A stretch of 36,036 nt of DNA from Campylobacterales bacterium (GTDB taxonomy: Bacteria; Campylobacterota; Campylobacteria; Campylobacterales; Nitratiruptoraceae), in assembly GCA_027082175.1 (NCBI GenBank), contig JALWIX010000098.1, forward strand, positions 1-36,036. Reading direction: 5' to 3'. The notes under the pieces were generated by a model that was not told the origin of the DNA, did no database searches, and saw only the letters and a list, made by a program, of their open reading frames with translations. Made by a program: the position numbers and the translations under genes. Below are positions 1,550 through 31,110 of this stretch, piece after piece; the stretch's first letter is position 1, and each line of letters starts with the position of its first letter.

Positions 1550-3580
1550 TTATAAATTTTTTATCTTCTCTATCTCGTCTCTAAGTCTTGCGGCCTCTTC
1601 AAATTCTAGTTTTTTTGCCGCTTCATGCATAAGGCGTCTTAGCTCTTTTACGATTTTCTCCTTCTCTTTTGGCTGGAGTTTTTCTATTTTCTTTTTCTTT
1701 TCATAAAGTATGTCGATATCCTCCATCTTTAGATTTTCATCCAGTTTTCTTTTGACAGTTTTAGGTATTATGCCATTTCTTTCGTTGTAAATTTTTTGTT
1801 TATAGCGTCTTTCTACGGTTGTTTTTATAGCGTTATACATAGATTTGGTGATTTTGTCTTTTATATTCTCAAGAGTTGCTATATCGTCTATAATGACTCT
1901 TTTTTCGATATTTTCCGCAAACATCAAGACTCTTCCCTTTTCATTTCTAGCGGCTCTTCCCATAGTCTGAATCAAAGATGTTTCGCTTCTTAAAAAACCC
2001 TCTTTATCCGCGTCTAAAACCGCCACCATACTCACTTCCGGAAGATCTAAACCTTCTCTTAAAAGGTTTATCCCTATCAAAACGTCAAAATCGCCAAGTC
2101 GAAGTCCCCTAATAAGTTGATTTCTCTCTATGGCGTCGATCTCTGAGTGCATATATCTTACTTTAAGTCCTAAATCCGCGTAATACTTCGTAAGCTCTTC
2201 CGCCATCTTCTTAGTAAGAGTGGTTATCAAGACTCTGTTTTGTTTTGCAATCTCTTTTTTTATCTCGTCATATAGAGTCTCTACTTGATAATGTGATGGC
2301 AACACCTCTACGATAGGATCTAAAAGTCCTGTAGGCCTTATGATTTGTTCCGCAACAACGCTGCTTAGCTCAAGTTCCGTCTCTCCTGGGGTTGCTGAAA
2401 CGAAAAGATAGTGAGGGGCTTTGTTTATAAACTCCTCAAATTTCAATGGACGGTTATCCAGCGCGCTAGGCAGTCTAAAACCGTACTCTACCAATACCTC
2501 TTTTCTGCTTCTATCTCCCGCGTACATTCCTCTAAATTGGGGAAGGCTAACGTGAGACTCGTCAACGATGATTAAGTAATCTCTCCCCATCGCTTCAAAG
2601 TAGTCGATCAAAGAGTAGGGAGTCTCTCCCGGTTTTTTACCGGTGAGGTGTCTTGAGTAGTTTTCGATCCCTTTGCATGTTCCCGTAGTTTCAAGCATTT
2701 CTAGATCAAACTCCGTTCTTTGTTTGAGTCTTTGGTACTCTAAAAGCTTGTTCTCTTTCTTGAAGTACTCCAATCTCTCTTCCAACTCTTTTTCTATAGA
2801 TTTTATGGCTTGGACTAATCGGTTTTGCCCAACGATAAACTGGTTTGCGGCGTAGATCGTGATAGATTTTATATCTTTTATCTTTTTATTTGTTAATGTG
2901 TCAAAATAGTAAATCGATTCTATCTCATCGCCGAAAAACTCTATTCTTATTGCTTCATCTTCACTATAAGCCGGATATATATCTATAACGTCTCCGCTAA
3001 CTCTAAAATCACCTCTATCAAAAAAGTTGTCATTTCTTTTATAACCCATCTCTACAAGTCTATATAAAAGCTCTTTTTGGTTAATTTCTTGGCCAATTTC
3101 TAGTTTTTGAACCATTTTTCTATATTCATTTGGGTTTCCTAGTCCGTAGTTTGCGCTTACGCTAGCGACTACTATAACGTCGTCAAACTCTAAAAGCGAG
3201 GCGGTTGCCGAGAGTCTTAATCGTTCTAGCTCATCATTGATAGAGCTATCTTTTTCTATAAAAAGGTCTTGTCTAGGCAAGTACGCTTCCGGTTGATAAT
3301 AGTCGTAATAACTTATAAAATACTCTACGTGATTTTTTGGGAAAAAACCTTTAAATTCGCTATAGAGTTGGGCGGCTAAAGTTTTATTGTGAGTCATAAT
3401 AAGGGTTGGCATCTGGAGATTTTCAATGATTTTAGCCATAGTATATGTCTTTCCGCTGCCAGTCACCCCTAAAAGAGTTTGATACCTGTTGCCAGATTTC
3501 ACGGAAAGAGTCAGTTTCTCTATGGCTTTTGGCTGATCACCTGAGGGTTTAAAGCTACTTATTAGTTCAAATTTTGCCAA
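1550..3580 (-). CDS. uvrB: UvrABC excinuclease subunit UvrB
   Basis: Damage-verifying helicase-like subunit of nucleotide excision repair; it loads with UvrA and recruits UvrC. Visible features: Walker A GVTGSGKT at residues 38-45, the beta-hairpin region [12 protein letters not shown] at about 91-102, the DESH box ([12 protein letters not shown]), helicase motif [11 protein letters not shown], and a C-terminal UVR domain ([14 protein letters not shown]) for UvrC contact. At 676 residues it is full length. The start is TTG at 3580 with AGGAGA 8-13 bases upstream on the minus strand. It is divergent from the small gene pair at 3702. No damage or promoter loss is seen. Confidence 0.98.
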
Positions 3581-4866: not shown

Positions 4867-4899
4867 TTAAAGAAGGAGACAAGAACTCTCCTTCTTTAA
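4867..4899 (+). terminator. 13-bp hairpin between the two pilin genes
   Basis: Perfect inverted repeat, arms 4867-4879 and 4887-4899, with a 7-base loop (CAAGAAC). It begins 3 bases after the first pilin stop. No long U-run follows (TTTAACCC), so it may be a weak terminator, an attenuator or an mRNA 3'-end stabiliser. The only AAGGAG upstream of the second pilin is inside the left arm. Confidence 0.6.
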
Positions 4900-4908
4900 C
4901 CCTTGTCT

Positions 4909-5454
4909 ATGAAAAGAAGAGCTTTTACTATCATCGAACTTATCTTCGCAATCGTTATAGTAGGCGTTCTTGCCGCTATTGCTATAAGTAGATTTGAATC
5001 CATAGAAGATGACGCGTTAAGCGCCGTTGAAAAATCGACTATAGGCGAAGCTAGACAAGCTATTTTATCTTTTTACGGATGGGCCTTGTTGCATCCAGGT
5101 GAACAAAACAAAACTGTCTCCATCATAGGAAAAGATGGAAATAGATACGATTGTGCGATAATTTTTTCCTCAAAAAGATATCCCGTAACCGTTACCGCTA
5201 AAGAGACAGGCATTTCTACCGATAACAATCTTAGCATAGGTAGCAGTACGAATATAGGAGATTATAAAACGTTGGCTCCTTTGATGCTCGATCCTCCGAC
5301 CATAAAAGATTGGAACTCTACTAGAGTTGATGAGAGATACGAATATCTAACAGGCCCGGCTACCAACTTTGTAGTGTACGAAAATGCCGAACTTAAAAAA
5401 GGTATGTATTGGCGTTATGATAACCATCAAGGGATTTTAGGTCTAAAAAAATAA
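4909..5454 (+). CDS. Type IV pilin-like / pseudopilin protein, second copy
   Basis: The N-terminus MKRRAFTIIELIFAIVIVGV again has the class III prepilin signal (cleavage before Phe6, Glu10 as the +5 glutamate, hydrophobic helix). The start is taken as ATG 4909; an in-frame TTG at 4903 would add two residues. It shares with the first pilin the post-helix segment R-ESIEDDALSAVEKS (DDAL..-EKS in both), so the two are probably paralogues, but the C-terminal domains differ. No normal Shine-Dalgarno precedes it: the AAGGAG upstream is locked in the hairpin at 4867-4899. Its expression may therefore be lower than that of the first pilin, or regulated. Confidence 0.88.
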   Translation: MKRRAFTIIELIFAIVIVGVLAAIAISRFESIEDDALSAVEKSTIGEARQAILSFYGWALLHPGEQNKTVSIIGKDGNRYDCAIIFSSKRYPVTVTAKETGISTDNNLSIGSSTNIGDYKTLAPLMLDPPTIKDWNSTRVDERYEYLTGPATNFVVYENAELKKGMYWRYDNHQGILGLKK

Positions 5455-5461
5455 CTTCTGC

Positions 5462-5467
5462 TATAAT
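5462..5467 (+). promoter_or_regulatory. -10 box for the ABC transporter / priA operon
   Basis: Perfect TATAAT 7 bases after the pilin stop and 25 bases before the ATG of the ABC ATPase. No good -35 box is seen. It would start the four-gene coupled block ending with priA. Confidence 0.45.
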
Positions 5468-5492
5468 TTCTTAAAAAAATCTAGAGGGCTTT

Positions 5493-6095
5493 ATGATACT
5501 TCTTGGTCACAACGGGGCGGGGAAAAGCACTTTTATCAACTATCTGCTCGGTTTTTACTCAAAACTCTCGGATCACCCTTTTTTGCCGCATTTCAAAGAT
5601 CATTTGCCAAATATAGATAAAAAAGATATAGGTTACGCTCCCGAAGCTGCGCTTTTGGATCTAAATATGAGCGCTATGGACTATTTTAAGATGATGGCCG
5701 TTTTAAGGGACGTAAAAGATTTTGACCCTTATGTACTCTTAAAAAGCGTAGCTTTGGAAGTTGAACTAAACACTCCTATAAAAAAGTATTCAAAGGGAAT
5801 GAAACAGAGACTTCTTTTAGCTATAGCGCTTCTAGGAAAACCAAAAACGTTGATATTGGACGAACCCACAAGCGGCCTAGACCCTTTTGGAAGAGCGGAG
5901 ATAGAAAAACTTTTAATAACTCTAAAAAAAGAACATTCGTTCATAATATCTACGCACTCTTTAGAACTAGCTTTGGCGCTAGAGGATGAGATTTGGATAC
6001 TAAAAGAGGGAAAGATAGAGTTTAAAGGGTATCCAAAAGATATAAATGAGTTAGAGGCTCTGCTTTTTAGATATCGTCCGGAGAAGATTAGATGA
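5493..6095 (+). CDS. ABC transporter ATP-binding protein with a short N-terminus
   Basis: ABC ATPase with Walker A GHNGAGKST at residues 5-13, signature YSKGMKQRL (about 105), Walker B LILDEPTSGLDP (about 127-138) and the switch His in ISTHSLE. The family is that of two-component exporters (NosF/CcmA/YbhF-like). It is odd in having only 4 residues before Walker A. The usual first two strands, with the aromatic A-loop that stacks on adenine, are absent. An in-frame TAA at 5472 and the preceding gene leave no room for them. AGAGGG precedes the ATG. The stop overlaps the permease start (ATGA), so the two form one transporter; the substrate is unknown. Confidence 0.88.
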   Translation: MILLGHNGAGKSTFINYLLGFYSKLSDHPFLPHFKDHLPNIDKKDIGYAPEAALLDLNMSAMDYFKMMAVLRDVKDFDPYVLLKSVALEVELNTPIKKYSKGMKQRLLLAIALLGKPKTLILDEPTSGLDPFGRAEIEKLLITLKKEHSFIISTHSLELALALEDEIWILKEGKIEFKGYPKDINELEALLFRYRPEKIR

Positions 6096-6874: not shown

Positions 6875-7547
6875 AGTCTCTATTTTTATAGTTGTTTCGC
6901 TACTTGTAGGGTTTGTATATATAACTCCAAAGCCGACTAAAAAGAGTTTGGTCGTAAATGAGATATTATTTGCCAAACCTCTTTTTTTCAGGGCTTTAAC
7001 AAACTATACTCATACATTGAGCGCAGATAGGCTATGGCTTCTTTCAAATACGGTAGGCGAGGTTGCCGCAGGAGATAGTTTCAAAGTTGACGAGATGGAA
7101 GTTTATAGGGCCTTTAAAACTATCATAATAATGGATCCATTTTTTTATCCCGCCGTAAATTATGCGGCAACCTATCTTGCTTCTATCAAAAAAAGAGTAG
7201 ATTTGGCAACAAATCTTATAAAAACGGCTAGGATATTTAACAAAAATGATTTTAAACTCTACTTTTTAGAGATTATTTTATTGCTGACTTACGAAGACGA
7301 GAAGAAGTTAGATGACGAGTATATAGCCTCTTTGGCTAAAAAAGCCGCGCTATTGCCTGATAGCCAAAAGATACTAGGACGCATAGTTATTAAAGATTGG
7401 ATAGAGGATATGCTAATCTACGCAAGAGACAAAAAAGGCAAACGCGCTCAAGCTATCGAAGATCTAAAGTGGCTTTTAAAAAATACGAAAGACCCGGTTA
7501 AGAAAAAAGAGATAGAAAAAAGATTAAAAGAGCTTATTAACAGATGA
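6864..7547 (+). CDS. Membrane-anchored or exported helical-repeat protein
   Basis: A 227-residue protein with an N-terminal hydrophobic segment (about residues 5-21, VSIFIVVSLLVGFVYI) acting as signal peptide or anchor. A helical, TPR-like domain follows (FKTIIIMDPFFYPAVNYAATYLA, then ATNLIKTARIFNKNDFKLYF). The C-terminus is a charged coiled coil ([15 protein letters not shown]). The start is TTG 6864, inside the end of the permease gene, with AAGGG about 10 bases upstream. The stop overlaps the priA start by 4 bases. It may be a periplasmic partner of the ABC transporter; I know no function for the family. A protein of this kind next to priA seems to be a Campylobacterota arrangement. Confidence 0.75.
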   Translation: MANRVSIFIVVSLLVGFVYITPKPTKKSLVVNEILFAKPLFFRALTNYTHTLSADRLWLLSNTVGEVAAGDSFKVDEMEVYRAFKTIIIMDPFFYPAVNYAATYLASIKKRVDLATNLIKTARIFNKNDFKLYFLEIILLLTYEDEKKLDDEYIASLAKKAALLPDSQKILGRIVIKDWIEDMLIYARDKKGKRAQAIEDLKWLLKNTKDPVKKKEIEKRLKELINR

Positions 7548-9394
7548 GATACTATATTGTAGCTATAAACCAAAAACCTCTGTTGCTTACATATTCGCAT
7601 CAAAACTATTTAGAAGAGGGAACTTTAGTCGAGGTGGAGATAAAAAAGAGACTATATAAAGGGTATATTATAAAAGAGACCCAAAAGCCCTCTTTTGAGT
7701 GCAAAGAGATAGCGAATGTAACCGATTTGTATCTGTCTAAAAATTATATGGAGATTGCAAAGTTTATATCGACTTACTATTTTTGTTCTATTGGCGAAGC
7801 GTTTGGACTTTTTGCTCCTTTTAAAAAAAATGGATTTGAAAAAGATAAAACAACCTATTCTCAGCTACCGATCGCAAACTCCGCAATTGAATTATCCGCG
7901 GAGCAAAAAGAGGCCTTAGAGTTTATAAAATCTCATCAGATATCTTTGCTTTTTGGAGATACGGGAAGCGGGAAGACGCAAATTTATATGAGATATTTTC
8001 AAGAGATATTGGCTAAAGGTAAAAGCGCGATATTTTTGATGCCGGAAATATCTTTGACTCCTCAAATGGAGGAGAGGCTAAGGGAGTATTTTGGATCAAG
8101 TGTGGCTATATGGCACAGTAAAATATCCAAAAAGAAAAAAGAGGCTATTTTAGAAGATATCCATAGCGGCAGGGTGAAGATAGTTGCGGGACCTAGAAGC
8201 GCTCTTTTTTTACCGATGGAAAATCTGGGTTTGATTGTGGTGGATGAAGAGCACGACGATAGCTATAAAGCGAATAATCGTCCTAGATACAACGCGAAAG
8301 ATTTGGCTATCTATTTTGGAAAAAAATTGGGAATAAGCGTTATTTTAGGAAGCGCTACGCCCTCTTTGAACTCATACTTGAAATTTCCTCGCTTTAGACT
8401 CAAAGGTAGTTTTTATAAAGGAAAAAAAGAGTTTGTTTGGGAAAACGAGTTAACATCTTTGACGCCTTTGGTGATAGAGCACATAAAAGAGACGTTAAAA
8501 AACAAAAAGCAATCTATTATATTTTTACCGACAAGAGCAAACTTTAAATATCTGATTTGCTCTGATTGCGGCGAAGCGGTTAAATGTCCCTATTGCGATG
8601 TGGGTATGAGTTTGCATTTTGACAAAAGAGCGCTTGTTTGCCACTACTGTAACTTTACCGAACCGATACCAAAACATTGTCCATCTTGCTCTTCTCGAAA
8701 TCTCAAAGCCAATAGAATCGGCACTAGCGAGATTGTAAAAGAGCTTAGAGAGATTTTCAAAGACGCAAAAATCGAAAAATTTGACAAAGATGAGATAACC
8801 ACCCATAAAAAACTTCAAAATACTCTAAAAAGTTTTGCAAAAAAAGAGATAGATATTTTAGTAGGCACTCAAATGCTCTCAAAAGGGCATGATTATCCGG
8901 ATGTTGCGCTATCCGTTGTGTTGGGAATAGACTATATTTTAAATATGGCCGATTTTAGAGCAAGAGAAAAAGCGGTTTCTCTTTTTTTACAGATAGCCGG
9001 AAGAAGCGGAAGAAAAGAGAAGGGAAAAGTATTGGTGCAGACTCTAAATCGGGAGTTTTTTGAAAGTTATCTAGATTTTGAGAAGTTTTTAGAGGATGAG
9101 ATGGAGTTTAGAAAAGGGTTGTATCCTCCCTTTAAGAGACTAGCTGTCGCACTCTTTTCTCATAAAGATAGAAAAAAGGCGCAAGAGAGCATGCAAGAGA
9201 TGCTAAAAAAACTAAAAAGATTTGAAGATATAGAGATAATAGGTTTTGGAGAGGCTCCTATAGAGAAGATAGCGGGGAGATACAGATATAACATTATTTT
9301 AAGAAGTGATTTTGCAAAAGCGATTATAAAAGCTATAAATGTTTCAAAAACCCAATTTTGTGAAATAGACATAGACCCCGTTGCTGTGATTTGA
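7544..9394 (+). CDS. priA: Primosomal helicase PriA
   Basis: Restarts collapsed replication forks by loading DnaB, through a 3'-to-5' superfamily 2 helicase. Walker A GDTGSGKT is at residues 138-145 and the DEEH box at [11 protein letters not shown]. The zinc-binding module is visible as [13 protein letters not shown] followed by CHYC and CPSC (eight cysteines). Motif VI is the QIAGRSGR segment. At 616 residues it is a compact PriA, as in relatives, with a short N-terminal DNA-binding domain. It is translated by ATGA overlap with the gene before it. dnaB, its functional partner, lies one gene further on. Confidence 0.96.
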
Positions 9395-9417
9395 CAAACT
9401 GCAAAAATAGATATAAT
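9391..9417 (+). promoter_or_regulatory. Sigma-70 promoter for ispG
   Basis: TTGACA at 9391-9396 (overlapping the priA stop) and TATAAT at 9412-9417, spacer 15 bases, about 33 bases before the ispG ATG. Both boxes are perfect; the spacer is 2 bases short of ideal. Confidence 0.6.
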
Positions 9418-9450
9418 ATAGTTTCAAACTCCGGGAGGAATTTTTCAAAA

Positions 9451-25488: not shown

Positions 25489-25839
25489 TACAATTCCTCT
25501 TTTTTATATTGCAATGGTAGCTAAAGAATACTTTTTAATCTCTAAATCTTTATCTAAAACAGCAAATCTTTGCTTAGAAAAATAGTGTAACAATATCCCA
25601 ACTATAGATAAATGACGTACTCTATAACAAAAAGTTATGAAAATATGTGAAAAAGCTGTTTGGTACTAGATGAAATATAACTTATTGGTGATAAAAATTG
25701 CGAATTTCTCTTGATATTATCTATTTTTATTACTAAATTAATATAAAAATACATTAAATATAAAAAATTGACAATATATGGTTTTTTTAAGTATTATTGT
25801 ATTAATGAATAAATAGTTACAATGACGCAAGAGACCCTA
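25489..25839. other. AT-rich non-coding left edge of the accessory region
   Basis: About 350 bases without a credible gene between aguA and the first attC-like site. GC content is very low. It contains the aguA leader and, near its right end, the promoter described separately. A small inverted pair (ATAACAAAAAGTTAT near 25622-25636) is seen. No integrase fragment is recognisable. Confidence 0.6.
25768..25797 (+). promoter_or_regulatory. Candidate cassette promoter (Pc)
   Basis: TTGACA at 25768-25773 and TATTAT at 25792-25797, spacer 18. It reads towards the cassettes and ends about 43 bases before the first attC-like site. With no other gene in front of the array, it is the best candidate for driving cassette 1 and perhaps 2. 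Confidence 0.5.
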
Positions 25840-25991
25840 GTTTAACGGCTGAGCAGAACGAGTTAATGTTCCTCTTTTGATAAGGTGTAACAAGTTGTAG
25901 GAGCGAACATCTATAAACTTAATCTTTCATTAGCTAGGGTGCAAGCAACCTTGCTCACTCAAGTTAAATATTGCTCTGCTCGGTGTTATCA
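25840..25991 (+). repeat. attC-like site 0 (long, atypical)
   Basis: R'' GTTTAAC (25840-25846, fits RYYYAAC) and L'' GGCTGAGCAGA pair with L' TCTGCTCGGT and R' GTTATCA (25985-25991), leaving one extra unpaired G in L'', as in true attC. The middle (about 115 bases) folds into smaller hairpins, for example GCAAG-CAAC-CTTGC and AAGTTGTAG with CTATAAACTT, not one long stem. No cassette belonging to it (starting GTTAAAC) is seen upstream. An attI site is the alternative. Confidence 0.6.
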
Positions 25992-26010: not shown

Positions 26011-26487
26011 ATGTATGAAGCTATGAAAACTGAAGAACAACCACAAGAAAAACTCCTTGAGATTATTTTCCTAAATGAAAAAGAAGCCATAAAAGCTAAT
26101 GATTTGCAGGGATTTTTATTCTATTTTAATATGTATTATTTAAAACTTGTAGATGAATATAATATTACTGTTATTGATATTGATATAAACAGTTTAATAG
26201 ATAATAGCAATGATTATACAGATAGTTTTTATTTTTCAAAATCTGATTATATAAAATATTCACGAAAAATATATTCTGAAGAAAATGATTTAAAAATAAC
26301 AAAGCTTGAAAAACATTCACCACTTGAAATTGTATTTGCTGGTTCTATCACGGCATTAGTCATAGCTTTAATATTATCTGGTGGAAAAGTTGAAATTGAT
26401 GTATTTAAAGGAAAATTTAAGGCTACAATTAATCAAAGCCTAGGTAAGTCTCTTAAAGAATTAATTCAAATTTATAAAAATTACTAG
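26011..26487 (+). CDS. Cassette 1: membrane protein of unknown function
   Basis: A 158-residue protein I do not recognise. The first 105 residues are acidic and probably soluble, starting with a helical region (PQEKLLEIIFLNEKEAIK). One membrane segment follows a SPLEIVFAGSITALVIALIL motif (about residues 104-123). The C-terminal 35 residues are amphipathic (GGKVEIDVFKGKFKATINQS) and end in a basic helix (LGKSLKELIQIYKNY). AAGGA lies 8 bases before the ATG. The stop TAG overlaps the R'' box of attC1, as in tightly packed cassettes. Very AT-rich. The layout (soluble sensor-like part plus one TM) would fit a small effector, but there is no direct evidence. Confidence 0.8.
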   Translation: MYEAMKTEEQPQEKLLEIIFLNEKEAIKANDLQGFLFYFNMYYLKLVDEYNITVIDIDINSLIDNSNDYTDSFYFSKSDYIKYSRKIYSEENDLKITKLEKHSPLEIVFAGSITALVIALILSGGKVEIDVFKGKFKATINQSLGKSLKELIQIYKNY

Positions 26488-26554
26488 ATAACAAATCATT
26501 GGAGAGAAATATTTGACCCTGCGGCTCAAATATTTCTCAACTCAACCGTTATGT
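26486..26554 (+). repeat. attC site 1
   Basis: R'' AGATAAC (26486-26492), R' GTTATGT (26548-26554), 69 bases. A perfect 13-bp stem, GAGAAATATTTGA with TCAAATATTTCTC, closes a 9-base loop CCCTGCGGC. It differs from attC3 at only 3 positions inside the boxes. Confidence 0.9.
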
Positions 26555-26582
26555 GTATTTTAGGAGTGGGAAAAAACTGATA

Positions 26583-27779
26583 ATGACACAAGTAGAAAAT
26601 TATAAAGAAATTCTAGAAAGCATATTCAACCAAGAGGTTAATTTTAAAGATTATACACTTGAAAATAATTGTATTGGTGCATTAAATAATCATCGTAATT
26701 TTCATATCTTTAAGGAAAACTTTATAACCCGACTAAATAGAATTAATAAATATTTTTATAATTCTGCACATGTTTTATCTGAAATAATAAATACAGCAAA
26801 ACAAATTGGACAAGTAAGAGGATATAAGTGGGCAGGTCCCTACTCAGAACTTGTTGTATTAGATTACTGGATTCAATTCGAAAATCTTACGAATATAAAA
26901 TATCCAGATAGAGGGAATGTCAATGAGTTTGCTAATAGTATTGCAAAGCAAATTGGTCAACAGGAGATAGATTTAGATATAAGTCTTGATTTGGCCACAA
27001 AAAAGATTTTTACCGATGTGAAATCGTTAATACCAATACATATTGAACTTATAGATAATATCATAGATAAATTAAATGATAGAATAAAAGACAAAAACTA
27101 TTTAATAGCAATAGATAATTTATTTGATGTTGATTATCTTAGAACTAAGAAGGACTTTGTTTATGAATTGCAATCAGGAACCCTGATTGATAAGTTAGAA
27201 GACTGCATAAATAATAAAAAAGCGTTTTATCGACATACTCTCAAGAGTGGAGAAATGGCTGAATTTAGAATTGCTTATCCTCGGCCTGGTTTAAATACAG
27301 TTGTTTCTACTATCAGAACCTTGGAACCATATAAATTAGCGGCCGACTATAAGTATAAGATACTAGACTACTACAATAAACTACTAATTGACGCTCCAAG
27401 TCTGATAACTTTTGTTATAAATCCTTGGTTTAATCAAGAGTTAAACATTTCCTTTGATTTTAAAAATATTTTTTATAGAGCATTAAGTAGGCGGATATTT
27501 ATGGAGTTAACAAAAGACAGTACAGACATGGGAACTATCTATCCGAGCCTTGTTGGTAAAAATCTTAGAATATCTGATGTGGCAAAAAAAGTAACTGGTA
27601 TTATTTTTATCTATGACAATTCTGTAATCAAGACAGGAAAAGATATATATGATGTTTCGATTTTTCTTAACCCAAATTCAACAAATATAAGATTAACAAG
27701 GAGTGACTTTGATATACTTAGTTGGTCATATGGAGTAAAGGGACCTTTTATTGATGATTTTTATTATGATAATTACTAG
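26583..27779 (+). CDS. Cassette 2: unknown protein, possible PD-(D/E)XK nuclease
   Basis: A 398-residue soluble protein of no family I can name with certainty. The frame is open to a GTG at 26553 inside attC1; the ATG at 26583 is the better start. A possible PD-(D/E)XK nuclease core is visible: Glu89 in PYSELVVLDYW, an acidic strand LDISLDL (Asp132/136) and Asp145-Val-Lys147 in KKIFTDVKSLIP, spaced as in restriction-type nucleases. A second conserved-looking region (SLITFVINPWFNQEL, then VTGIIFIYDNS) has strands and aromatic residues. No helicase or methylase partner is adjacent. A defence nuclease is a reasonable guess from the cassette setting. A fold prediction would settle it. Confidence 0.8.
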   Translation: MTQVENYKEILESIFNQEVNFKDYTLENNCIGALNNHRNFHIFKENFITRLNRINKYFYNSAHVLSEIINTAKQIGQVRGYKWAGPYSELVVLDYWIQFENLTNIKYPDRGNVNEFANSIAKQIGQQEIDLDISLDLATKKIFTDVKSLIPIHIELIDNIIDKLNDRIKDKNYLIAIDNLFDVDYLRTKKDFVYELQSGTLIDKLEDCINNKKAFYRHTLKSGEMAEFRIAYPRPGLNTVVSTIRTLEPYKLAADYKYKILDYYNKLLIDAPSLITFVINPWFNQELNISFDFKNIFYRALSRRIFMELTKDSTDMGTIYPSLVGKNLRISDVAKKVTGIIFIYDNSVIKTGKDIYDVSIFLNPNSTNIRLTRSDFDILSWSYGVKGPFIDDFYYDNY

Positions 27780-27788
27780 AAATGAGGC

Positions 27789-27860
27789 ACATAACAAGGC
27801 GCTGCACTGGACCGCTATTCCGCTGCGCTCCATAGCGGCCAGTGAGCTTGGTCGTTATAT
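27789..27860 (+). repeat. attC site 2
   Basis: R'' ACATAAC (27789-27795), R' GTTATAT (27854-27860), 72 bases. The stem ACTGG-CCGCTAT with ATAGCGGCCAGT has one extra unpaired A on the left arm, the typical extrahelical base. It is GC-rich in an AT-rich setting and unrelated to attC1/attC3 in its middle, so this cassette came from a different source. Confidence 0.92.
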
Positions 27861-27882: not shown

Positions 27883-28389
27883 ATGAAATTAATTGAATAT
27901 ATTAAAGCACATATTTTTGCTGTATCTATAAGTATTTTGGGATTTTTATCTGCAATTGTAACTTTATTTATTGATATAACACAGCTGGTTTCCATTAAAT
28001 GGTTGATTTTTTTGATTTTTATCGCATTGGTCATTATTACAGTATTAATAGGTTTTATTATTGAATTTCTAAAAAACAAAAATAATAGTTACAATATAAA
28101 TCAATTAAAACTAAAAAATTTAAATAAAAAGAGTCCCAAAGGAGAAGTTTTTTTAAATAAATCACAAATCAATTTTGAGTATGGTGATATAGTAAAAGTT
28201 TATTATTTAGATAAAGATAAAATTGAAAGATTTATTGGAATTGGAATTATAGAACATATACAAAAAGAGCAAAGTATATGTCATATAAATTTTCTATTAA
28301 AAGAGGAAACTAATAATAGTATCAGTGAAGTTTATTTTAGTCTTAAAATTAATAAAGATGAATTACAACAGCTAATACAGAAGGATTGA
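27883..28389 (+). CDS. Cassette 3, gene A: two-TM membrane protein with a small beta domain
   Basis: A 168-residue protein with two membrane helices near the start (about residues 10-32 and 37-63). An Asn/Lys-rich linker follows, then a C-terminal beta-rich domain (SQINFEYGDIVKVYYLDKDK, GIGIIEHIQKEQSICHINFLL). AGGA is 7 bases before the ATG. It ends 3 bases before gene B, so the two are translated together. The beta domain has the look of the FlgT_C-like strands of gene B (a generic 'GDIVKV-Y' plus 'G-I-H-I' pattern) but no firm assignment is possible. Function unknown; a membrane anchor for gene B is plausible. Confidence 0.78.
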   Translation: MKLIEYIKAHIFAVSISILGFLSAIVTLFIDITQLVSIKWLIFLIFIALVIITVLIGFIIEFLKNKNNSYNINQLKLKNLNKKSPKGEVFLNKSQINFEYGDIVKVYYLDKDKIERFIGIGIIEHIQKEQSICHINFLLKEETNNSISEVYFSLKINKDELQQLIQKD

Positions 28390-28392
28390 AAA

Positions 28393-28824
28393 ATGGAAGC
28401 AAAAGTAATAAAAATTGTAGATAAATATAAAGTAGCAATTAACAAAGGCTCTATTGATGGAGTATCAAAGGATGATATTTTTATGATTTTTGAAAAAGGA
28501 GAGGAGCTTTTTGACCCTGATACTAAAGAAAGTTTAGGGAATTTAGAAATTCCAAAATTAAGAATGAAAGTTTTTAATATTCAAGAAAAGATAACTTTAC
28601 TTGAAAGTGCGGAGACTGTTATTGAAACAGACAGAAAAATAAAAAGAACCATAAAAAAGTATAGAGATAAGCGCTCTGAATTACTTGGACTCGGTCTTGC
28701 AGCTTATGGTTTAGGAAAAAATAATGATGAAGAGCAAACAATTATTGAAGAAGAACCAAAGGAGAGAACTGTAACAGTTCAAGAAAAAAATATTTCTACT
28801 GGTGATATTGCAAGAAAAATATAA
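28393..28824 (+). CDS. Cassette 3, gene B: FlgT C-terminal-domain-like protein
   Basis: A 143-residue soluble protein. The first 80 residues (AKVIKIVDKYKVAINKGSID, GVSKDDIFMIFEKGEELFDP, ESLGNLEIPKLRMKVFNIQ) match the pattern of FlgT C-terminal domains: a small beta barrel with G-x-x-x-GV-x-x-GD-x-F and DP-x-T-x-x-x-LG. The C-terminal half is charged (RTIKKYRDKRSELL, then a run of acidic residues) with no known motif. No signal peptide. It is the second gene of a two-gene cassette. The TAA stop is inside the attC3 R'' box. Role unknown; flagellar function is unlikely because no flagellar gene is near. Confidence 0.78.
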   Translation: MEAKVIKIVDKYKVAINKGSIDGVSKDDIFMIFEKGEELFDPDTKESLGNLEIPKLRMKVFNIQEKITLLESAETVIETDRKIKRTIKKYRDKRSELLGLGLAAYGLGKNNDEEQTIIEEEPKERTVTVQEKNISTGDIARKI

Positions 28825-28887
28825 CAAATCATTGGAGAGGAATATTTGACCCTGCGGTTCAAATATTTCTCAACTCAATCGTTAGGC
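28819..28887 (+). repeat. attC site 3 (array end)
   Basis: R'' ATATAAC (28819-28825), R' GTTAGGC (28881-28887), 69 bases. The stem GAGGAATATTTGA with TCAAATATTTCTC includes one G-U pair. The R' fits GTTRRRY exactly. Nothing with the matching R'' GCCTAAC is found downstream, so this is the right end of the array. Confidence 0.92.
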
Positions 28888-29055: not shown

Positions 29056-30264
29056 ATGAATTTTACAAAATTTTATAATGAACAGTTTGAATTAATAAAA
29101 AAATTAGATTTAAATTTCAAAAGAAGTGTTTATGAATTGTTAGATATAAAAAATAATAAACTAATTGCATTATTGGGGCAAAGAGGTGTTGGAAAAAGCA
29201 CAATGTTGCTTCAAAAACTCAAAGAGTTAAACAATAACAATGCCTTATATATCTCAGTAGACAATCCATACTTTGCAAATGTAAATTTATATGAATTTGC
29301 TAAAAAATTTGAACAATATGGTGGAGAATTTTTATTTATCGATGAAATACATAAATACAGAGATATAGGCTCACATTTAAAAGCAATCTATGATATGACA
29401 AATCTAAAAGTTATAGTGTCTGGTTCTTCACTATTGCAAATTTACAAAGAAGCTGATTTAAGTAGAAGAATATATGAAATAAGAGTTCCTGTAATGTCTT
29501 TTAGGGAATTTTTAGAAGTAAAAGGATATATTTTCAATAAATACCCTCTTGAAGAAATAATTATAAATCATATAGATATAGCAAAAGAGATAGCTTCTAA
29601 AATAAAACCTCTAAAGTATTTCAAAGAATACCTTGAATATGGTTGTTATCCATTTTTTTTAGAAGGGTTAAACTCTTATAAACAGAAACTCTTGAATATA
29701 CTCAATTACATTCTTGAAGTGGATTTACCTTATACATCAAACATTTCATACTCAAATATAGATAAACTAAAAAGATTGCTTTATTTGATTTCCATTTCTG
29801 TTCCGTTTACTCCAAATATTAATGAATTATCTCAAAAAACACAAATTTCAAGGCCATCTTTATTGGAGTATCTCTATTTACTTGAAAAAAGTGAGATATT
29901 AATTAATCTACATTTCAAATCAAGAGGTATTTCAAAACTTCAAAAACCGGATAAAATTTATTTTAACAATACAAATTTAGTTAGAGCAATTGCAGAAAAT
30001 TCAAATATTGGAAATGAAAGAGAAACATTTTTTGTAAATCAAATAAAAAGTTATTTTCTAAATAAAAAAAGTTTTTTTGATGAAGATATTATTTTATCAA
30101 AACAAGGTGATTTTATAGTTAAAGATTTTGTTTTCGAAATAGGCGGTAAAAATAAAACAAAAAAACAGATTAAAGAGATTCAAAATGCTTTTATTGTAAA
30201 AGACGACATCGAAATAGGAGATAATGCTTCTATTCCTCTTTGGATTTTTGGTTTTTTGTATTAA
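29056..30264 (+). CDS. AAA ATPase with DUF4143-type C-terminal domain
   Basis: A 402-residue P-loop ATPase of the AAA_14 / DUF4143 group. Walker A GQRGVGKST is at residues 41-49 and Walker B FLFIDEIHKY at about 92-101. A sensor segment KVIVSGSSLLQI and the arginine pair LSRRIYE follow. Then come a winged-helix-like part (about 255-300, LSQKTQISRPSLLEYLYLLE) and a nuclease-like DUF4143 end (GDFIVKDFVFEIGGKNKTKK: D-x-x-x-E-x-G-x-K), similar to restriction-type folds. Such proteins are common on genomic islands; their role is largely unknown. No attC follows, so it is not a cassette of this array, but it shares the low GC. Confidence 0.88.
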   Translation: MNFTKFYNEQFELIKKLDLNFKRSVYELLDIKNNKLIALLGQRGVGKSTMLLQKLKELNNNNALYISVDNPYFANVNLYEFAKKFEQYGGEFLFIDEIHKYRDIGSHLKAIYDMTNLKVIVSGSSLLQIYKEADLSRRIYEIRVPVMSFREFLEVKGYIFNKYPLEEIIINHIDIAKEIASKIKPLKYFKEYLEYGCYPFFLEGLNSYKQKLLNILNYILEVDLPYTSNISYSNIDKLKRLLYLISISVPFTPNINELSQKTQISRPSLLEYLYLLEKSEILINLHFKSRGISKLQKPDKIYFNNTNLVRAIAENSNIGNERETFFVNQIKSYFLNKKSFFDEDIILSKQGDFIVKDFVFEIGGKNKTKKQIKEIQNAFIVKDDIEIGDNASIPLWIFGFLY

Positions 30265-30346
30265 ACTCGGATGATTAGTACTTACTTTTTTAGAATTTAG
30301 TCATTTAGGCTCCTTAGAAAAGTTAACGATATTGTAAAGAAAAGGT

Positions 30347-30422
30347 TTGACAAAAACTGTCAATTTAAAGATATATTTCGAAATTTTAGATATAGAGATT
30401 TATACTTATGATATAATACGTA
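30347..30422. promoter_or_regulatory. Promoter and possible operator of the RHH/PIN toxin-antitoxin genes
   Basis: A -10 box TATAAT at 30412-30417 overlaps the palindrome ATACGTAT (30415-30422), and a TATAC..GTATA pair frames it; TTGACA-N5-TGTCAA lies further upstream (30347-30363). Ribbon-helix-helix antitoxins usually bind such short palindromes over their own promoter, so this is a likely autoregulation site. Confidence 0.4.
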
Positions 30423-30448
30423 TAGCTTTGTATGTATGGAGGCGATGC

Positions 30449-30688
30449 GTGACGGTTAGGAAAAACTTTTTATTGGATGACGAGATTGCAAAACATTTAG
30501 AAGAAATAGCAAAGAAAGAAAAAACTACTCAGTCGGAGATAATACGTAGATTGATTGAAGAAAAATATCAAGAGTATTTAAAACTTGAAAGACTCAAAGC
30601 ATTTAAAACAATAATACCTGTAGAACCCGGAACTTTGGTTGGCAAAAGTATTCAATCTATAAAAGAGGAGATGGGTCAGGATATATGA
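30449..30688 (+). CDS. Ribbon-helix-helix antitoxin
   Basis: A 79-residue protein. The N-terminal strand VRKNFLLDDEIAKHLEEIAK followed by KEKTTQSEIIRRLIEEKYQE is a MetJ/Arc-type ribbon-helix-helix domain. The C-terminal tail (about residues 50-79) would wrap the toxin. The frame extends upstream, but GTG 30449 with GGAGG 6 bases before it (30438-30442) is the clear start. The stop overlaps the toxin ATG (ATGA). The likely role is DNA-binding antitoxin and repressor of its own operon. Confidence 0.82.
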   Translation: MTVRKNFLLDDEIAKHLEEIAKKEKTTQSEIIRRLIEEKYQEYLKLERLKAFKTIIPVEPGTLVGKSIQSIKEEMGQDI

Positions 30689-31110
30689 GAGTCTTTTTAG
30701 ATGCAAATATTATCTTAGATATATTGGACGTTAAGAGGCCTTTTCATAAATATAGTGTAAAAGTATATGAAGATTTAATTTTAAATCATCAAATATTTAT
30801 CTCTTGCGATTTGATTACTACTGTTTATTATATAAATTCAAAAGTAAACAAAGAGTTTGCTTTATCGAATATTCAAAAAATTATCAAAACATTAAAAATA
30901 GTAGAATTTTCAAATAAGGAAGTTGAAGAAGCTTGTGATTTGATGCTAAAGGATAGTGATTTTAAGGATTTAGAAGATACTCTTCAATATATTATGGCAA
31001 AAAAAATTGGTTGCGACGTAATCTTGTCAAATGATGAAAATTTTGTAAGCAAAGATATAGAAGTTTTAAATAGTAAAGAGTTTTATGATAAGTATGTAGA
31101 TAGAGAGTAA
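30685..31110 (+). CDS. PIN-domain ribonuclease toxin, VapC-like
   Basis: A 141-residue PIN protein with Asp6 (VFLDANIILDILD), Asp42 (SCDLITTVYYINSK), an acidic group DFKDLEDTLQ (Asp95-Asp98) and SNDENF (Asp117). The DFKDLEDTLQ segment recalls the DFEDALQ pattern of one PIN toxin subgroup. It overlaps the RHH antitoxin gene by 4 bases. It belongs to a different PIN subgroup from the toxin at 23935-24357, so the two are not recent duplicates. It ends 43 bases before alr and so closes the right side of the accessory region. Confidence 0.87.
   Translation: MRVFLDANIILDILDVKRPFHKYSVKVYEDLILNHQIFISCDLITTVYYINSKVNKEFALSNIQKIIKTLKIVEFSNKEVEEACDLMLKDSDFKDLEDTLQYIMAKKIGCDVILSNDENFVSKDIEVLNSKEFYDKYVDRE

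Follow-up and report, generated by a model that had tools for sequence, protein, structure and literature searches.

A single-gene integron cassette in a Campylobacterales bacterium encodes a predicted PD-(D/E)XK-type nuclease with a possible role in defense

The window, a 36,036-nt stretch of DNA analyzed here (contig JALWIX010000098.1 of a Campylobacterales bacterium, assembly GCA_027082175.1), contains a single-gene integron cassette whose product is probably a nuclease of the PD-(D/E)XK type, judging by four charged residues that are invariant throughout its small family. With even confidence, we read the gene as a horizontally moving single-gene cassette for a metal-dependent PD-(D/E)XK-type nuclease, most likely acting, with no partner, in defense against phage or other foreign DNA. 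The majority of integron cassette proteins lack an assigned function; here, a small family that shares four invariant charged residues, ordered as in a nuclease, converts what was a guess from a single sequence into a prediction that can be tested.

The gene is an open reading frame (ORF) of 398 amino acids on the forward strand (positions 26583 to 27779), starting with the ATG at 26583. The mechanical ORF list starts it upstream, at the GTG at 26553, but every intact relative opens with M-T at the position of the ATG; we therefore consider the ATG, and not the GTG, to be the true start. The first-pass annotation had proposed an ORF of this length and extent, and the frame is indeed real and lies within an integron cassette; the residues to which that annotation drew attention (Glu89, Asp132, Asp136, Asp145, and Lys147) are found at those positions in the translation. 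The protein had also been described as unknown and as having no known partner, and this agrees with our searches, in which the window protein had no relevant match at the sequence level in Pfam, NCBIfam, PADLOC, PHROGs, or the PDB sequences.

An integron gene cassette is an ORF between attC sites, with a start that is complementary to the R'' end of its own attC; complementarity between the start of the cassette and the start of the attC is expected when the circle opens at GTT. Here, GTTATGTG at 26548 and CACATAAC at 27788 are exact 8-nt complements (shuffle P = 0.0015), and they are accompanied by attC sites that can fold (Table 1); the designation of this unit as cassette 2 was thus right. 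Folds were scored on a single strand, the bottom strand, as z values against shuffled sequences, and the bottom strand of the cassette 2 attC forms an imperfect hairpin (z = -2.5). The attC sites of cassettes 1 and 3 are 95% identical over 64 nt. The cassette 1 ORF weakly matches phrog_30240 (E = 4.8e-6), and the 143-aa ORF of cassette 3 (28393 to 28824) matches phrog_27728 (E = 1.9e-5), both of them phage protein families of unassigned function. The array opens with a longer attC-like or attI-like stretch at 25836 to 25990 (TTTAACGGCTGAGCAGA ... TCTGCTCGGTGTTATC), which folds no better than its shuffles. In the promoter scan, sites were no commoner than in shuffled sequences, the candidate in Table 1 included, and no Rfam family was matched between 25400 and 31200. 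For an integron integrase (TIGR02249), the best score in the source genome was 47.8 bits against a cut-off of 265; since nothing exceeds the cut-off, the findings are consistent with an array of the CALIN type or with an incomplete assembly, and an integrase is not required for a cassette. Integrons have been described in Campylobacterota as well as in Bacteroidota, and CALINs are frequent (PMC8618304).

Table 1. Features of the cassette array and codons of the predicted site residues, in window coordinates.
Feature	Position	Strand	Remarks
Possible promoter	25768..25797	+	TTGACA-18-TATTAT; 11/12 consensus; just upstream of the attC-like stretch from 25836
Cassette 1 ORF	26011..26487	+	158 aa; hydrophobic stretch near C-terminus
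attC of cassette 1	26488..26551	+	Ends at the recombination point, which is the start of cassette 2; fold z = -5.3
Cassette 2 as excised	26548..27853	+	GTT|ATGTG to the GTT of its attC; 8-nt complement
E89	26847-26849	+	Codon; predicted site residue
D132	26976-26978	+	Codon; predicted site residue
D145	27015-27017	+	Codon; predicted site residue
K147	27021-27023	+	Codon; predicted site residue
attC of cassette 2	27788..27860	+	CACATAAC...GTTATAT; R'' complements the cassette start
Cassette 3, two ORFs	27883..28824	+	168 aa (hydrophobic N-terminus) and 143 aa
attC of cassette 3	28821..28884	+	64-nt copy; fold z = -3.5

Four relatives of the protein were found, giving a family of five sequences, three of them close. 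A scan of the genome collection gave two full-length proteins from Bacteroidota, one in a Paludibacter MAG (locus L007) and one in Cytophaga sp. FL35 (L008), with 66% and 65% identity, respectively. The most distant intact relative, from a Bacteroidales genome (L032; 422 aa, 29% identity by BLASTP over 440 columns), was detected by a profile built before this sequence was known, its halves matching at E = 1e-34 and 1e-24. The remaining one, on plasmid pBB1 of Cupriavidus necator N-1 (L025; about 22% identity), was first seen as a weak tblastn match of the L008 protein against plasmids (E = 0.05). Its N-terminal, central, and C-terminal blocks run in order across three reading frames, from which we conclude that this copy is frameshifted; the order of these blocks, together with a match between the L032 and pBB1 sequences at E = 2e-28, indicates that the relationship is real. 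The family spans three phyla, Campylobacterota, Bacteroidota, and Pseudomonadota. Some 1,800 genome searches in Campylobacterota and Bacteroidota, with some genomes searched repeatedly, gave one new relative, and none was found in the viral contigs scanned (six scans with the protein and one with the attC) or in the phage records searched. Chance matches in Campylobacterota reached per-genome E values of 1e-4 to 1e-6; by eye, these were NeuB-type sialate synthase genes that recurred (L003 to L005), an ABC transporter matched weakly (L006), and an unrelated short ORF, also matched weakly (L002). Matches from Paraburkholderia, Sinorhizobium, and a Vibrio phage, which overlap an aldehyde dehydrogenase, a sugar-nucleotide epimerase-like ORF, and a phage DNA-binding protein, were set aside as well and are without the site.

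The first-pass annotation had likened Glu89, the acidic strand around Asp132 and Asp136, and Asp145-x-Lys147 to a restriction-type active site and had proposed that the residues should be invariant in an alignment. Among the five sequences (relatives sharing about 21 to 66% identity with the window protein), 24 of the 213 fully aligned columns are invariant, and so are 5 of the 61 charged columns, namely E89, D132, D145, K147, and K266; four of these five are predicted site residues, with P about 1e-5 when charged columns are considered and about 1e-4 over all columns. The part of the claim that concerned E89, D132, D145, and K147 is accordingly upheld in every relative found, down to about 22% identity, whereas position 136 reads D, Q, D, L, and R across the five sequences, and since it varies, Asp136 falls outside the site. 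For L032, the site residues fall at the same positions in the BLASTP and MAFFT alignments. E89 is invariant within the motif WxGxY[SA]EL, and the segments that hold the site read YSELVVLDYW...EIDLDISLDLATKKIFTDVKSL in the window protein, YAELAAYDIL...SNLDGLIRDIGVYFDVKCF in L032, and YAELCALGYF...ANHDMRFPSLGVSMDTKLL in L025. The L032 protein has ...NLDGLIRDIGVYFDVKCF, a typical hairpin-like D...DxK, and that of L025 has ...NHDMRFPSLGVSMDTKLL; D132 and D145 are 13 residues apart in the window protein, and their counterparts in L032 are 11 apart.

In the PD-(D/E)XK pattern, a helix glutamate is followed by an aspartate and then, 11 to 13 residues later, by D-x-K; the acidic residue of the preceding helix is present in many, but not all, members. 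The order and spacing of E89, D132, D145, and K147 match such a site, with the strands placed by prediction. The putative Asp ... (Asp/Glu)-x-Lys signature (D132, D145, and K147) is conserved in all five sequences, and the invariant E89 would sit on a helix spanning residues 86 to 99, according to a low-confidence model. Taken alone, the candidate motif is weak: shuffling the protein sequence still yields E-x30-60-D-x9-16-[DE]xK in 76% of cases and a version limited to a plausible helix/strand context in 3%. It is the conservation of E89, D132, D145, and K147 across the five sequences that lifts the site above chance.

The core of a PD-(D/E)XK enzyme has the fold alpha-beta-beta-beta-alpha-beta. 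AlphaFold models built from a three-sequence input were too poor to show the fold (pLDDT of 46 for the full length and 40 for a fragment), the two disagreed in secondary structure around residues 130 to 147, and a Foldseek search of the PDB with the first of them returned noise and no usable match. A five-sequence profile found nothing among the PDB sequences, and none of the five members matched a relevant model in Pfam, PADLOC, or PHROGs; none has a PADLOC model that would place it in a described anti-phage defense family. The PD-(D/E)XK superfamily is notoriously divergent, and profile matches between its families often fail; the absence of a family match therefore neither favors nor opposes a nuclease. 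A protein that is no nuclease at all, in which the invariant E, D, D, and K form some other metal-binding or structural site, would fit the frequency of the motif in shuffled copies, the missing profile match to known nucleases, the poor models, and the finding that W83, G85, Y87, P281, and W282 are conserved as strongly as the site residues. We nevertheless regard this as rather unlikely, as four of the five invariant charged columns appear in the order, spacing, and hydrophobic context of PD-(D/E)XK. A stand-alone nuclease is the probable reading, because the invariant charged residues are nearly all of nuclease type and the relatives reside on mobile elements.

The PD-(D/E)XK (restriction endonuclease-like) superfamily includes Hjc, lambda exonuclease, and Mrr-type enzymes. 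The candidate resembles it in its predicted helix glutamate, strand aspartate, and D-x-K 11 to 13 residues on, all invariant in the five members, but has no detectable sequence similarity to the named families and carries large additional conserved regions at its N and C termini. In the mechanism that we envisage, a helix would carry Glu89, one strand Asp132, and the following strand Asp145-x-Lys147; the site would bind Mg2+ and cleave phosphodiester bonds, with DNA as the most likely substrate. Target choice, or holding the enzyme inactive until infection, would probably fall to the conserved N-terminal region (about residues 1 to 75) and C-terminal region (about 245 to 398, with PW and DNY motifs). 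The outcome would most likely be restriction or abortive defense against phage or other foreign DNA, with no partner protein needed.

All five copies are on or beside mobile elements. The window copy is a single-gene integron cassette. The Paludibacter copy occupies a unit whose ends, GTTAGGTGTA (5946) and TACACCTAAC (7206), are complementary over 10 nt (shuffle P = 0.0002). The 60-nt core of its attC-like end, at 7220, recurs at 9363 with 77% identity in a cassette-like array (7205 to 9440); no integron integrase scored above the cut-off in that genome. The unit is followed, ahead of the second core, by a two-gene unit that encodes a 330-aa protein and putAbiC. An RteC gene is upstream, AbiEi is about 4 kb downstream, and the putAbiC, RteC, DUF4238, and AbiEi genes all fall within 13 kb. 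The Cytophaga copy is separated by about 120 bp from an upstream tyrosine recombinase adjacent to tRNA-Pro and has no clear cassette ends, the best complement being 6 nt. Two other loci in the same genome (L033 and L036) encode tyrosine recombinases of 375 to 378 aa whose scores on part of the integron integrase model, 129 and 101 bits, well exceed the usual background but miss the cut-off. A recombinase fragment lies close to the L032 copy, which a 260-aa ORF precedes. That ORF (2462 to 3244) and another at 4869 to 5636 on the minus strand, both of about 255 to 260 aa, are weakly alike (E = 0.002) and by eye have the look of degenerate nucleotide cyclases; the first of them stops 12 bp before the nuclease-like gene. 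The pBB1 copy is carried by a conjugative megaplasmid; an IS3-like transposase ORF (by eye) is about 4 kb away, and no defense genes were recognized when its neighborhood was read by eye. Taken together, the neighborhoods favor cargo selected for defense or addiction, in what is a small sample of five loci.

A PD-(D/E)XK nuclease need not be a defense enzyme; it could instead serve its mobile element, in branch resolution, repair, or the processing of recombination intermediates, or act in a toxin or addiction module. Two copies (L008 and L032) are near a tyrosine recombinase or a fragment of one, and Holliday-junction resolvases such as Hjc have a D...ExK spacing of 11 to 13 with a helix glutamate, so the site would suit them too. 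The host elements differ in type and in recombination chemistry, however, which disfavors an element-specific job, and 398 aa is a large size for a resolvase or for a simple toxin. Integron cassettes often carry toxin-antitoxin functions (PMC8618304), which would suit a toxin, but the loci have no antitoxin-like partner in common, and we consider an element-serving or toxin role unlikely. Far less probable still is a type II-like system in which the protein would supply restriction and depend on a modification enzyme. PD-(D/E)XK is the commonest fold among type II restriction enzymes, but no DNA methyltransferase was recognized near the window gene, L007, L008, or L032, and in the neighborhood of the window gene, as distinct from unlinked genes, the sole methyltransferase match was the rRNA enzyme GidB.

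A role in defense against foreign DNA, which we rate as evenly balanced, is supported by the mobile setting of all five copies and by the abortive-infection-type genes near the Paludibacter copy. There, putAbiC, AbiEi, and DUF4238 share an apparently mobile stretch with the relative, all within 13 kb, putAbiC being in the next cassette-like unit; they are neighbors of the nuclease-like protein and have no sequence relation to it. At least 16 of 179 Vibrio cholerae integron cassettes tested, about 10%, are reported to be anti-phage, and integron-borne defense systems include compact type II and type IV restriction genes (PMC12409362). The window gene resembles the anti-phage cassettes carried by chromosomal and mobile integrons (Darracq et al. 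2025 and related studies, described in PMC12409362), whose reported types include restriction genes, in being a compact single-gene unit between attC sites; it differs from the Vibrio cassettes described there in its host, a member of the Campylobacterota, in having no PADLOC model match, and in being known from sequence alone. More tentatively, at a little short of even confidence, we suggest a new and rare family of single-protein anti-phage nucleases, with their own target-sensing N- and C-terminal domains, that crosses phyla by cassettes and other mobile elements. This is a new family rather than a new kind of system, both the kind of enzyme and the genetic setting being known already. If confirmed, it would add to cassette-borne defense a stand-alone nuclease family that is present in at least three phyla and absent from the PADLOC library searched.

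Just 3' of the cassettes, the segment from 29056 to 31110 holds three genes. An AAA_14/DUF4143 ATPase of 402 aa that matches the PADLOC candidate defense model PDC-S01 (E = 5e-32) is followed by an RHH antitoxin-like ORF and a PIN-domain ORF, which make up a VapBC-like pair.
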